This document shows, in pieces, positions 1-22,460 of a stretch of DNA of 35,844 nucleotides. Position numbers and translations under genes: made by a program. Location: positions 1-35,844 of the forward strand of contig JAGXLC010000008.1 in assembly GCA_018334875.1 (NCBI GenBank). Reading direction: 5' to 3'. The notes below the pieces were generated by a model, which was not told the DNA's origin, did no database searches, and saw nothing but the letters and a program-made list of their open reading frames with translations. Positions within the stretch are counted from its first letter, which is position 1. Every line of letters begins with the position of its first letter. This DNA is from Bacteroidales bacterium. Lineage in GTDB: Bacteria; Bacteroidota; Bacteroidia; Bacteroidales; UBA12077.

Positions 1-222
1 TCTAAAGGACATGATGATTTTTTTATCCCATTGCCTTATAAAAAAATATGAAGCTATAAATGAAAATCGGTTATGGCTTTATTTCCCTACCATATCGTTG
101 CATTCAATTCAGGCTTTCTAAAGGCCCGGCCTCTTGCCCCCGTTCAGGGGGCAGATAGCGATAGAAACGCCGAACCCAGCGGCTTGGGCGCCTCGTAGAG
201 TGTGCGACAGAATGTGAGCCGT
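1..222 (+). repeat. Element E, copy 1 (structured intergenic repeat)
   Basis: This stretch matches the reverse complement of 22235-22460 over its whole length, with roughly four-fifths identity by eye. It may continue past the left edge of the window. Two hairpins are visible. The first is TGCCCCC-GTTCA-GGGGGCA at 135-153, followed by GATAGCGATAG. The second is GCGC-CTC-GTA-GAG-T-GTGC at 188-205. Both stems are kept in the other copies by different base pairs, which points to a folded RNA or a cruciform rather than a decayed gene. No open reading frame explains the conservation. Confidence 0.75.
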
Positions 223-258
223 ATACCAACAAAACAAATATTCCATTAATTATCTTAT

Positions 259-776
259 ATTTCTATGGAAATCCGGTTTACCTTATGTTAAAAACCTTAA
301 ATTTCTGCAGAAATATGAGATCACTGGCGTCCGAAACGATACATTTCTGCCGACCGACGGCTTACCCTACATTAGAAATCCCAAATTTCTATGGAAAAAT
401 GGGTTGCCCTAGATTAGAAATCCCAAATTTCCATAGACAGATGGCTTACCCAACGTTGGAAACCGTATATTTCTGCCGTAAAACAGGCTTCCCGACAAAA
501 GCAAACCCTTATTTCTGCAGACACATGGCTTACCCGACGTCGGGAATATAGCATTCCTGCAGATAAATGGGTTGCCTGACGGCGAAGAACCTGCTTTTCC
601 GTGGAAAGATGCCTTACCCTATGTCCCAAATCATATTTGCCTGCAGAAATAAGGCTTACCTGGTATCACTAAGCTTATTGATCTGCAGTAACCTGGGTTT
701 ACCCACGAAACAATCCCTCTGTATCCATAGAAAAAACGATTACTTAACAGCCGGGAAGCAAATATACCGCAGATTA
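259..776. repeat. 42-bp phased array of 13 dyad-symmetric sites
   Basis: Thirteen 14-bp sites start at 259, 301, 343, 385, 427, 469, 511, 553, 595, 637, 679, 721 and 763, each exactly 42 bp after the last. The best copy, ATTTCTGCAGAAAT at 301-314, is a perfect palindrome. Core consensus is TTCYRYRGAA, which is symmetric in itself. A second, weaker block GGCTTACCC follows each core by about 16 bp. Read in frame the array gives a 14-residue repeat (for example YPTLEIPNF), but stops at 549-551 and 564-566 interrupt it, and the opposite strand is also open in parts, so it is more likely a DNA-level repeat than a gene. A degenerate tail reaches about 824. Confidence 0.85.
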
Positions 777-1061
777 CTGCCTTTTTCCGGTAAAAATATC
801 TTCATTTCCCACCGCAGAAAATGAGGATCATCCTGAATGATCTTTAACTGTCAGGTAACAAGACCCATTATTGCCCCATTTAAGATTCCATACAATTGCA
901 TCGGCTAAGAACAATTATTTGACCTGGTAATTTTCAAGAGGAGCTATGGTTTGTTTCCAAAAGTTATTAACAATTGATCATTTTGTAAAGAAGCATATTA
1001 AAATAATTCGTACTTTTAAATCAAATTTTTTAGCCAAATAAATTTTTAAAAATCAGAAGCC
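777..1061. other. AT-rich intergenic stretch before the first gene
   Basis: After a decayed final repeat unit (to about 824), this segment is AT-rich and has no gene-like frame. A possible weak promoter lies at 981-1018 (TTTTG, then TACTTTTA after 25 bases, one mismatch to the -7 consensus and long spacing). Nothing else is recognised. Confidence 0.4.
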
Positions 1062-1781
1062 ATGCCAATATTTGCAGAACCCACCAATGACGAAGCACGC
1101 CTGGGATTTCTCAAGCGCGCTGTAGTAACAGCAGCCTACGACAAAGCGGCCGGTAACTCGCATCTTACAGAACAGACCGAAAATGACGTAACAGAGTTTA
1201 TTCCGCTTTTTGAAGGGGCGATTAAAAGGATCAACGATTCGCTCAGCAAACGTACCGTAGAGGTTCAGGAAGGCTCGGAAGCTTTGGAGGACATGAAAAC
1301 CGCTACACGGGATTTCTGGGAGGTAGTAAGAAGAAGGGTTAAACGCCTGGACCAGCCGGCAGGTGTTTTGACCTATTACGAACTGCCTCTTAGTGGTCTT
1401 ACTCCCCGACCAACCACCATCGAGGAGTGGTTCATATTGGCAGACAAGATCATCGATGGCGATGCCAAAGCAGTGGCAGCAGGTTATCCCGCCATGGAAA
1501 ACCCGGATGCAGAAGAACTGAAAGCAGCCAGAGATAAGGCCCTGGCTGAAAGACGCGATATTCCCATTGCGGATCGCATATATGATGAGGCCCAGGCAGA
1601 ACTTGAAGGGCGCCGGCCTCGGGCCATCGAGCTGATCGACGACATCATGGCAGACCTTCGACATTCCCTTAGAAAAATGGACGGGCCCAGCCAGCGGCGC
1701 ATCATGCGCTCCTATGGTGCAACCTTTAAGTATTATAATGGAGAACCGGAAGACGAGATTCCGGAGACGGATACAGAATAA
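1062..1781 (+). CDS. Hypothetical protein, 239 aa, helical, unknown function
   Basis: I do not recognise this protein. It has no signal peptide and no membrane segment, so it is probably cytoplasmic. The sequence looks mostly alpha-helical and charged, with many Glu/Asp/Lys/Arg heptad-like stretches (about residues 50-95 and 150-215) and an acidic C-terminal tail ending EDEIPETDTE. A central segment with LTYYELPLSGLTPRP (about 104-118) could be a loop between two helical bundles. The ATG is preceded by an AT-rich leader without a Shine-Dalgarno sequence, as is normal for this phylum. A strong hairpin terminator at 1831-1864 closes the transcript, so it is probably monocistronic. The coding assignment is supported by length, codon-like composition and the terminator; function is open. 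Confidence 0.75.
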   Translation: MPIFAEPTNDEARLGFLKRAVVTAAYDKAAGNSHLTEQTENDVTEFIPLFEGAIKRINDSLSKRTVEVQEGSEALEDMKTATRDFWEVVRRRVKRLDQPAGVLTYYELPLSGLTPRPTTIEEWFILADKIIDGDAKAVAAGYPAMENPDAEELKAARDKALAERRDIPIADRIYDEAQAELEGRRPRAIELIDDIMADLRHSLRKMDGPSQRRIMRSYGATFKYYNGEPEDEIPETDTE

Positions 1782-1830
1782 TTGTTCAACAAATGTTTTC
1801 TTCAGGCTCATCAAGCCACTTTCCTGATCT

Positions 1831-1864
1831 GGCCGGGGTAACAGCGCAACCCCGGCCTTTTCTG
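1831..1864 (+). terminator. Rho-independent terminator after the 239-aa gene
   Basis: A perfect 9-bp GC-rich stem, GGCCGGGGT at 1831-1839 with ACCCCGGCC at 1849-1857, has a 9-nt loop and is followed by TTTTCTGTT. It sits 50 nt after the stop at 1781. Confidence 0.85.
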
Positions 1865-1927
1865 TTAAAACAAAACCCTGGCAATCAATTAAACAATAAA
1901 TCATCTATAGCATAAAAGCACTAAGAA

Positions 1928-2827
1928 ATGAGAACATTTTTTGCAGGTGTGATCCTGTTAACCCTCTTCACCGCAGGCTGTGAAAACGGCGGCAATCAAA
2001 TCCGTCCGTCCGAGGTCGGGTTCATTATGAAAATGAACAACCAAACCGTCATCAACTTTAGCGATATTGACTATTACGACTTCTCCACACACATGATCTA
2101 TCTAAAGCACGACTTCTCTTACTTTAAGGAAGAGGAGCTCCATGACATGGATGAATTTACGGTATATGCCGATGGAGAAAAGATCTACTCCGGGCATACC
2201 TTCCCCGGGTATTATTCCCATATGCCGAAAGGGCCGGTAATACACTGCGATCCCAACTTCTACAGCGATTATATTGTTCCCATCGGGTTCATCAATATCA
2301 TTGATACACTTGGAAACCCCACTCCCGATCCAAGGGGCGACCAGAGGATAGCCGCTGCGTTAAAACGTTTCAATCAGTACCATGAAGGATTGAAAGGCGA
2401 GATCCGTTCGGTAACCTACATGAACCAATATCGGGTTAAGTTCGAATTTACCCTGACCAACGAGGATTCATTCAACTATTATTACCTGGATCCGGATAAG
2501 ATGGGTGTCAAGCTGTTCCATTACTTCACAAATGGGCTTTATATCAGTGATGAAGCCACCCATGAATCTTACGCTCATAAGATGAAGGTTGAAAGCCCCG
2601 AGTCATATAAAACCTGGAAAAAAGAGTGGCTGTCGCTGATCAAAAGCGGGGAAACCAAAACCTTCACCATTACCTACAACCGTTTTGAAGTGGTTCCCAC
2701 GGGAATGTATACGGCCCGGTTTACCTTTCCGGGATTACATTGGGTAGATAAAGAAGAATTGAAACAGGACCAGGGAAGGATATGGCTGGGAAAAATATCC
2801 TTTCAAAAGGAAATCATCGTTCAATAA
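1928..2827 (+). CDS. Hypothetical lipoprotein, 299 aa
   Basis: The N-terminus is a lipoprotein signal peptide: Met-Arg, a hydrophobic stretch (FFAGVILLTLF) and a lipobox FTAGC with the lipidated Cys at residue 18. The mature protein is rich in Tyr, Phe and Asp and looks beta-rich. No catalytic motif is seen. Segments near residues 95-115 (DPNFYSDYIVPIGFINI) and the C-terminal GMYTARFTFPGLHWVDKEEL suggest an immunoglobulin- or jelly-roll-like fold, which is an inference. It lies after the terminator of the preceding gene, so it probably has its own promoter, and it converges with the BrnA gene 3 nt away. The +2 residue is Glu and the following residues are Asn, Gly, Gly. Likely outer-membrane or periplasmic; role unknown. 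Confidence 0.8.
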   Translation: MRTFFAGVILLTLFTAGCENGGNQIRPSEVGFIMKMNNQTVINFSDIDYYDFSTHMIYLKHDFSYFKEEELHDMDEFTVYADGEKIYSGHTFPGYYSHMPKGPVIHCDPNFYSDYIVPIGFINIIDTLGNPTPDPRGDQRIAAALKRFNQYHEGLKGEIRSVTYMNQYRVKFEFTLTNEDSFNYYYLDPDKMGVKLFHYFTNGLYISDEATHESYAHKMKVESPESYKTWKKEWLSLIKSGETKTFTITYNRFEVVPTGMYTARFTFPGLHWVDKEELKQDQGRIWLGKISFQKEIIVQ

Positions 2828-9598: not shown

Positions 9599-10786
9599 AT
9601 GGACCAAAATATAAACAAAGATATAAACGGGGATCAATCCCTGAAGCAAGATCAAACCACACAATACCAAAATAAATGTCAAAGGGATTTTTGCAAAGCA
9701 GAGCACTATACCAAACTATCCGCGTACAATTGGCTGAAGGATCTCCCCAATAACGGGGATCAGTTCCATGTTGTTGAAGTTCGGTTCAAAAATACCCGTA
9801 AGGAATATTTCCAAAACATTAACCATATACCGCTCACTGAAGGGGATATTGTTGCATTAGAAGCTTCACCGGGTCATGATATCGGGATTGTTTCGCTTAC
9901 CGGCGAACTGGTCTGGAGAAAATTGAAACAGGAGGGTATCACACCCGAAGATACCGAATTCAAAAAGATCTACAGAAAGGCTAAGGAAGCCGACATAGAA
10001 AAATGGCGCGAAGCTGTTGCCCTGGAACACCAAACGATGATCAAAGCCCGGAAGCTTGCCAAAGAGCTCAAACTGAACATGAAGATCGGCGATGTGGAAT
10101 ATCAGGGTGATAAGACCAAGGCCATTTTCTATTATATTGCAGAAGAAAGAGTGGATTTCAGGGAATTGATCAAAGTACTCGCCGAGGAATTCAAAATACG
10201 GATTGAGATGAGGCAGATCGGCACAAGGCAGGAATCCGGAAGAATTGGAGGCATTGGCTCGTGCGGAAGAGAATTGTGCTGTTCCAAATGGATCAGCAAT
10301 TTCGTTTCAGTAACCACCAATGCAGCAAGATATCAGGAGTTGAGCCTGAATCCTCAGAAATTGGCGGGCCAGTGCGGCAAACTTAAATGCTGTCTCAATT
10401 TTGAACTCGATAGCTACATCGATGCCAAGAAAGATTTCCCGGATACTTCTATAGAGTTAAAAACCAAACAAGGGACAGCCTACCACCAAAAAACCGATAT
10501 TTTCAAAAAAGTACTCTGGTATTCCTTCTACAAGGAATCCTCTGAAAACCTGATTCCGGTTACAGTAGATCGTGTCAAGGAAATCATCGAAATCAATCAG
10601 AAGGGTAACTGTGTGGAATCACTTGTTGAAGTAAAAGAATCCAGCACGGAGGGCTACAGTTTTGAGAACGATGTAGGCCAGGACAGTGCCGATCGTTTCA
10701 ACAATAAGCAAAAGAGCAGCAAAAAGAAAAAAAACCGGCGAAACAAGAAAAAAAGAAAAAGCAAAAGCAATGATAAAAAACAGTAG
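9599..10786 (+). CDS. ricT: PSP1-domain protein, RicT/YaaT family
   Basis: RicT (YaaT) in Bacillus works with RicA and RicF in a [4Fe-4S] complex that promotes RNase Y-dependent RNA maturation; the role in Bacteroidota is not settled. The 395-aa protein has the PSP1 core from about residue 60 (VVEVRFKNTRKEYF) to 280. Cysteine motifs are kept: GSCGRELCCSKW (about 221-232) and AGQCGKLKCCLNFE (about 257-270). The C-terminal tail is Lys/Arg-rich (KKKKNRRNKKKRK) and could bind RNA; it is not part of the core domain. The gene overlaps gldH by 17 nt, so translation is probably coupled. Confidence 0.92.
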   Translation: MDQNINKDINGDQSLKQDQTTQYQNKCQRDFCKAEHYTKLSAYNWLKDLPNNGDQFHVVEVRFKNTRKEYFQNINHIPLTEGDIVALEASPGHDIGIVSLTGELVWRKLKQEGITPEDTEFKKIYRKAKEADIEKWREAVALEHQTMIKARKLAKELKLNMKIGDVEYQGDKTKAIFYYIAEERVDFRELIKVLAEEFKIRIEMRQIGTRQESGRIGGIGSCGRELCCSKWISNFVSVTTNAARYQELSLNPQKLAGQCGKLKCCLNFELDSYIDAKKDFPDTSIELKTKQGTAYHQKTDIFKKVLWYSFYKESSENLIPVTVDRVKEIIEINQKGNCVESLVEVKESSTEGYSFENDVGQDSADRFNNKQKSSKKKKNRRNKKKRKSKSNDKKQ

Positions 10787-22005: not shown

Positions 22006-22090
22006 TTCCGCCCTCGTAGAGGGCCAATAGCGATAGCGATAGCGGACCCCTCACCACACCCGCGCCTCGTAGAGTGCGCGATAGAATGCG
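22006..22090 (+). repeat. Element E, partial copy (3' half only)
   Basis: It matches the last 90 bp of element E (about 130-222). The first hairpin is GCCCTC-GTA-GAGGGC at 22010-22024, then AATAGCGATAG, and the second is CGCGC-CTC-GTA-GAG-T-GCGCG at 22061-22080. Sequence in the stems differs from the other copies but pairing is intact. Confidence 0.7.
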
Positions 22091-22234
22091 GATCGATTAA
22101 TTTATTATGTTTTGAGTGAGACGAGCTGGTCTCTGATCTGTGAATTATGATACGTATCCGCTGAACATTGGGCATATTGTAGATGCTCTGTTTGTCGAGG
22201 GTTCCAATCCGATATCTGGATAGCTCAAAATATC
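22091..22234. other. Spacer between two inverted copies of element E
   Basis: About 145 bp with no gene seen. It contains a short inverted repeat GAGAC-GAGCTG-GTCTC and is AT-rich elsewhere. It is flanked by E sequence in opposite orientations. Confidence 0.4.
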
Positions 22235-22460
22235 TATCGCGCGCTCTACGAGGCGCCCAACCCGCCGAGGTATGGTATTTCTATCGCTATTTGCCCCTTA
22301 TCGGGGCAAGAGGCCGGGGCCTTTAAAAAGGCTAAATTAAATGCAACGATATGGTTGGGAAATAAGGCCCTAACCGGAATTCATAATGGATTTTCATATA
22401 TAGATTGATATTTTTTTATAGGGCAATAGGATATAAAAACATCATGTGCCCTTTAGTTTC
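22235..22460 (-). repeat. Element E, copy 2 (inverted)
   Basis: The reverse complement of this segment aligns with 1-222 along its length. Hairpin 1 is TTGCCCC-TTATC-GGGGCAA at 22291-22309; hairpin 2 uses GCGC/GCGC around CTC-TAC-GAG at 22239-22256. Its 5' end touches element C copy 2 directly. Confidence 0.78.

Follow-up and report, generated by a model that had tools for sequence, protein, structure and literature searches.

Bacterial intergenic minisatellites are usually treated as passive sequence. CRISPR arrays combine near-identical repeats with unrelated spacers, and REPs are high-copy sequences of 20-40 bp. In REP/BIME systems, the gene for a RAYT (Y1) transposase is flanked by palindromes and a GTAG/CGTC tag is found at one palindrome end. 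REP/BIME elements are extragenic palindromes that are sometimes clustered (PMC3733652). Two repeat families of Porphyromonas gingivalis are described in PMC4596501. BrickBuilt is a MITE with a 23-nt unit and 19 copies, in which variation within elements amounts to 0-11% mismatches and 0-6% indels, and each element is bounded by a leader and a tail segment that terminate in inverted repeats. The second family, 464/PgRS, is MITE-like and dispersed and contains 41-nt tandem direct repeats, for which PMC4596501 reports no BLAST match outside P. gingivalis.

Here, we describe a tandem array in a window of 35,844 nucleotides from a Bacteroidales bacterium (GCA_018334875.1), the window being the entire contig C8 of this 533-contig genome (G000, the source genome). 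The array resembles the P. gingivalis families in general plan and departs from BrickBuilt in the length, symmetry and spacing of its unit.

Results

The window array consists of 13 tandem 42-bp units that align when the sequence is broken into lines of 42 letters from position 259 to position 804 (546 bp, Table 1), and the first-pass annotation, which had described 13 copies with exact 42-bp starts and no slip, is thus borne out. The repeat itself was misjudged: the whole 42-bp unit recurs and not a 14-bp site set in filler, as is evident from columns G10 and T21, which are invariant over 42 units in four arrays, and from C5 (41/42) and A36 (40/42). The proposed core TTCYRYRGAA is present literally at 4/13 sites only, whereas the shorter CYRYRG is found at 11/13. 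All 11 CYRYRG occurrences inside the array, among 95 in the whole window, share one phase of 42, and across the four arrays the figure is 35/35. Between positions 241 and 800, self-identity averages 0.26 across lags 5-129 but reaches 0.53 at lag 42, 0.565 at lag 84, and 0.54 at lag 126. Because the window units average 52% identity, Tandem Repeats Finder (TRF) alone calls only 343-462 in the window (2.9 copies, 0 indels). Just left of the array, positions 60-211 hold another dispersed, intergenic-looking repeat with 12 further matches in the source genome (27-152 bases, 73-93% identical), two of which fall in the window, at 22233-22384 (minus) and 22062-22088 (plus).

Table 1. Positions of the window array, its parts, and the 42-bp arrays of a sister-genus genome
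Feature	Position	Strand	Basis or remark
Whole window array (13 imperfectly palindromic units of 42 bp in tandem)	259..804	+	layout, lag identity, frames, column statistics
Unit starts of window array	259, 301, 343, 385, 427, 469, 511, 553, 595, 637, 679, 721, 763	+	
A-dyad TTTC-YRYR-GAAA of window array	centred at the junction of unit columns 7 and 8, with the other dyad centre 21 bp further along		
Two most worn units, at right array edge	721..804	+	family-consensus identity 0.52 and 0.48
Left array edge, containing TAATTAT	243..258	+	12/16 bases in register with left edge of C432 array
42-bp arrays of G017	L245 ~1510-1960 (minus numbering), L246 1612-1885, L247 ~1-220 (minus numbering)		

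Column statistics were computed over 36 units of the source genome and six of its congener G004 (42 units, four arrays). Since these units are related to one another, the conservation statistics treat them as more independent than they are (SD of pairwise identity 0.10 vs 0.07 expected). The unit is an imperfect palindrome whose consensus is symmetric at 28/42 positions (shuffled mean 19.9; 11/5000 shuffles as high). Repeating a palindrome in tandem inevitably creates another dyad centre midway through each period, and dyads therefore recur every 21 bp; CGTC stands at this second centre in the consensus. Information content is mirror-symmetric about the palindrome centre (r 0.57, rank 1 of 42 mirror maps), and the column-to-column variance of changes is 51, compared with a maximum of 17.4 in 5000 equal-rate simulations. 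As the first-pass annotation had noted for the window, the core varies while its YRYR symmetry is retained: 36/42 units keep YRYR and 12 of the 16 possible types occur. Core columns show 47 transitions to 7 transversions vs 220:258 elsewhere (Fisher p 4.5e-9, with units that are not independent), and YRYR retention exceeds general transition bias. The 42 units have accumulated at least 105 substitutions with zero phase slip.

The two halves of the unit do not covary, as 56.7% of cells are paired vs 57.6% when shuffled. This count, like alignment A1 and model R1, used 30 of the 36 source-genome units and no G004 units; the six most worn units were left out (window units 12 and 13; C110 units 1, 12, and 13; C432 unit 10). 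The absence of covariation fits a dimer that contacts its half-sites independently, and the RNA hairpin was rejected as a candidate on the same count. Dyad-symmetric conservation, independent half-sites, and a fixed phase are thus all found, as for an array of dimeric sites, with unit kinship weakening the statistics. Mirror-symmetric conservation, near-exclusive transitions within YRYR, and non-covarying halves together form the pattern of a dyad contacted by protein, as opposed to a hairpin. The earlier proposal of a dyad site for a dimeric protein therefore stands as a candidate, to which the spacing kept in four arrays can be added.

A pattern search found the same unit at exactly 42-bp spacing on two further contigs of the source genome, C110 (13 units) and C432 (10 units). 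The three arrays are about 420-580 bp long, with stops in all frames. In G004, which is 57% complete, six units occupy the start of contig C46 and adjoin a tRNA-Met gene; all six are in phase, and the suggestion that spacing should hold in a relative while sequence drifts was confirmed there. When model R1 (30 units) was run against 30 genomes, only the source genome (30 matches) and G004 (4 matches) responded. All 30 source-genome matches lie on the arrays of C8, C110, and C432, and two of them represent the opposite strand of the palindrome. This search scored 150/1488 first-look candidates in the source genome and may therefore have overlooked weak units that stand alone. A pattern search across 59 genomes gave matches in five, of which those in G032, G037, and G041 were single and unlike the unit. 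Each of the four arrays is no more than about 900 bases from the end of its contig, and other arrays may therefore be lost in assembly. The C432 array had no match in phage and plasmid collections.

The window and C432 arrays align best at shift 0 of 13 shifts, with unit 1 81% identical, and the agreement of their left edges (Table 1) was equalled by 0/20000 random pairs. TAATTA is present at the C110 left edge too, but shifted by 2 bp, making an indel there possible; the G004 left edge is without it. Register homology was not found between C110 and C432. Mean unit identity is 0.52, 0.55, and 0.59 within the source-genome arrays and 0.54-0.58 between them, so that homogenisation is not under way in these arrays. 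In G004, by contrast, the six units are closer to each other (0.70) than to other arrays (0.57-0.62), a pattern that would fit ordinary homogenisation in that array. The nearest neighbour of a unit was in its own array for 14/42 units (about 10.5 expected), and the outermost units of the three source-genome arrays are the most worn.

Contig C110 aligns to G004 contig C79 up to position 10531 and again from 11114, and these points are adjacent in G004 (2822/2819). The extra 582 bp corresponds to 13 units plus about 36 bp, and by this alignment the C110 array is an insertion absent from the congener. Its first bases fall within the T-tract of a nuoE hairpin that resembles a terminator (identified by eye). 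TTTTTA flanks the insert on both sides and may represent a target duplication, though of low complexity and in a T-rich terminator tail. C110 is the only locus at which both ends of the element are defined, and a search for terminal inverted repeats there gave nothing better than chance (best ungapped 24-mer with 14 matches; 170/300 shuffles as good). Units (PWM score >=9) were found at 0/22 loci around homologous genes in G000-G007; these loci include the nuoE places (syntenic by blastn in G001-G004, best protein match only in G005-G007) and the source-genome place corresponding to the G004 array.

The C110 array lies between the convergent ends of nuoE and the gene for a T9SS-sorted protein; a Por_Secre_tail domain, in keeping with a Bacteroidota genome, was found in the neighbour-gene family search. 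Insertion between convergent gene ends argues against an operator role for this copy. The C432 array lies between a photolyase-related gene and the start of a KefB-like antiporter (the latter read by eye), and the window array precedes the gene for a 239-aa protein with no Pfam match. This window gene (1062-1781) has only 20-22% identity matches, in 4/7 genomes, and the photolyase-related gene has matches in G001-G003 and not in G004 or G005-G007, with blastn aligning its coding part only. No partner gene recurs among the immediate neighbours looked at, which are housekeeping or unknown genes. A single local platform for partition, replication, or defence, as had been envisaged, gains no support, since the genome holds two further dispersed copies, no partner gene recurs among the neighbours looked at, and the C110 copy is an insertion. 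Separately, Y1_Tnp (IS200/RAYT-type) transposase matches occur in the source genome at C369:932-1273, C297:17-265, and C21:11310-11651, none of them on array contigs; G001, G003, and G004 have none, and G002 has one below the cut-off.

To place the period in context, tandem arrays were counted as non-coding when no stop-free stretch of 150 codons spanned them. Congener G002 has 43 such arrays in 0.8 Mb, with periods of 14-85 bp that cluster near 16-22 and 40-43, and TRF reports indels in 24/43. Counts elsewhere were 4 in G000 (0.37 Mb, window included), 2 in G003 (0.37 Mb), 0 in G007 (0.40 Mb), and 1 in G014 (0.35 Mb). Arrays of the minisatellite-rich G002 were sampled in L285-L304 and L325-L344. 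Among G002 periods of at least 15 bp, 16/42 are within 1.05 bp of a 10.5-bp multiple (24% expected, p 0.03), and 5/42 non-coding G002 arrays have palindromic units at shuffle p <=0.01. The exact 42-bp phase on which a four-turn helical argument had been built is real, but the argument is weak because minisatellites of this congener have many periods; arrays with a 42-bp period are no rarity among these genomes, and the period by itself therefore gives no proof of helical selection.

The reversed control pattern led to three dispersed 42-bp arrays of unrelated sequence in G017, a genome of a sister genus in the same GTDB family. These arrays alternate GCA/ACG subtypes and are cut by contig ends in two of three cases. 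They differ from the window family in having near-identical units, some of 41 bp, and palindromicity at chance level (534/5000 shuffles as high). Three TTTCYRYRG motifs at 42-bp spacing occur at no fewer than 119 genome loci and at 15 viral loci. These 134 loci were rejected as family members, since the unit (PWM score >=15) is present at 0/134. The majority are tandem repeats whose period is 42 or divides 42, many within open frames; among those listed, 20 look non-coding and 7 are without a TRF array, and 3/20 of the non-coding-looking loci are clearly palindromic (shuffle p <=0.005). Tandem arrays of similar style, with 21-bp (or 2 x 21-bp) units and TTTCYRYRG-type cores, were seen in other phyla and families at L042, L064, L115, and L140 (Tannerellaceae), at L059 (Treponema), and at L129, L135, L146, and L160. 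For the 21-bp arrays of termite-gut Tannerellaceae and Treponema (ten loci), core likeness was selected by the search pattern and serves as a lead only.

Discussion

On balance, we consider it somewhat more likely than not that the array belongs to a lineage-specific, dispersed, non-coding minisatellite of mobile type, in which a 42-bp dyad monomer is held by a predicted dimeric protein. Such an element would comprise about 10-14 imperfect-palindrome monomers in strict register, and whole arrays may have spread to intergenic sites in a MITE-like manner. A dimeric DNA-binding protein encoded elsewhere would bind the dyads side by side, and sequence and spacing would be held because of this binding, with the YRYR steps forming the flexible centre of each putative site. 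Candidate binders include the mobilising enzyme of the element and a chromosomal protein. Counting against this explanation are the missing terminal inverted repeat and low-complexity TTTTTA at C110, the absence of register homology between C110 and C432, the presence of only three copies in a 533-contig assembly, and the fact that palindromic units are not unique to the family. It is conceivable, if unlikely, that the arrays are mobile binding platforms in a fuller sense, with 10-14 dyad sites in two- and four-turn phasing inserted at different places in two sister species; a dedicated dimeric protein would polymerise on them, as on a portable centromere-like or nucleoid-like array, and so hold the sites in register despite sequence drift.

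A rather unlikely alternative, and the one that weighs most among the rivals, is a neutral, decaying intergenic minisatellite, in which a palindromic unit was amplified and spread and is now wearing, such that apparent constraint is inherited and nothing binds. The abundance and varied periods of non-coding arrays in G002, the three unrelated 42-bp arrays of G017, the worn edge units of the source genome, and the mutual likeness of the G004 units within their array are all in keeping with such passive behaviour. It is harder to reconcile neutrality with the lack of any slip in 42 units despite their many substitutions, when over half of the G002 arrays contain indels and the little-diverged arrays of G017 include units of 41 bp. 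A unit has its nearest neighbour in its own array scarcely more often than expected, yet G10 and T21 never vary, and the bias of core changes towards transitions also speaks against simple wear. Selection by the host on a binding platform at fixed sites (a nucleoid, partition, or regulator array), with mobility secondary or absent, would account for the dyad conservation, phase lock, YRYR core, and spacing kept in two species. However, the array is absent from the equivalents of C110 in G004 and G001-G003, and from the source genome at the G004 locus, and no partition, replication, or regulator gene recurs among the immediate neighbours. The convergent setting of C110 and the restriction of the unit to two of 30 model-searched genomes also oppose a host platform, and we regard it as distinctly unlikely.

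Transcribed tandem hairpins acting as a terminator, mRNA stabiliser, or small RNA would agree with RNA folding that is more stable than in shuffles (z -4.1 for window 259-720; z -5.0 for L010 377-754) and with the start of the C110 insert just past the nuoE hairpin. Stable folding is to be expected of any tandem array of palindromes, regardless of function. Moreover, we found no compensatory change in the 30 units counted and no Rfam match to the array at gathering thresholds, and a consensus scan of window positions 1-1200 placed no terminator-like site within the array; an RNA element is thus very improbable. The possibility of a decayed protein-coding repeat of 14 residues is slighter still and barely credible. 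The period equals 14 codons, an open stretch of 109 codons runs in one frame at C110, and some frames contain 1-2 stops where the shuffled mean is 5-11 per frame. Nevertheless, at least one stop interrupts each of the six frames in all four arrays, so that no open frame runs through the repeats in any of them, the least interrupted frame is not the same from one array to the next, and conservation is dyad-symmetric. The first-pass annotation had likewise argued against a coding repeat from a frame broken by two stops, and the best of six window frames does contain two.

The mobile, protein-held minisatellite that we favour bears on how such sequences are viewed. Exact spacing and a mirror motif kept at 52-59% mean identity in the three source-genome arrays point to a DNA-protein interface under selection, which makes the partner protein worth searching for. 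In addition, the minisatellite-rich G002 and the unrelated 42-bp arrays of G017 suggest that such arrays arise repeatedly, and period and symmetry can therefore be compared across families.

Among known systems, a CRISPR array was rejected, as the repeat fills the whole 42-bp period and source-genome units average only the above identity. The family is unlike REP/BIME in that only long arrays were found and the three Y1_Tnp matches are all off the array contigs. Like BrickBuilt (PMC4596501), it is intergenic and built from a short, imperfect tandem unit in which some positions are conserved and others vary; both families have several dispersed, non-coding copies of unequal length and are confined to a single lineage. 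Unlike BrickBuilt, it has a 42-bp palindromic unit, a mean difference of 41-48% between units of the source-genome arrays, no slip, and three source-genome copies; leader and tail segments and terminal inverted repeats were not found, and beyond the units and about 36 bp of the C110 insert there is only a short shared left edge. The 464/PgRS family, likened here by its description in PMC4596501, is also dispersed and MITE-like, with a nearly equal tandem period. Among the open-licence papers listed on the subject, no title or abstract opening describes a 42-bp palindromic array in Bacteroidota. The type of repeat is known in related bacteria, while the 42-bp family itself looks new.
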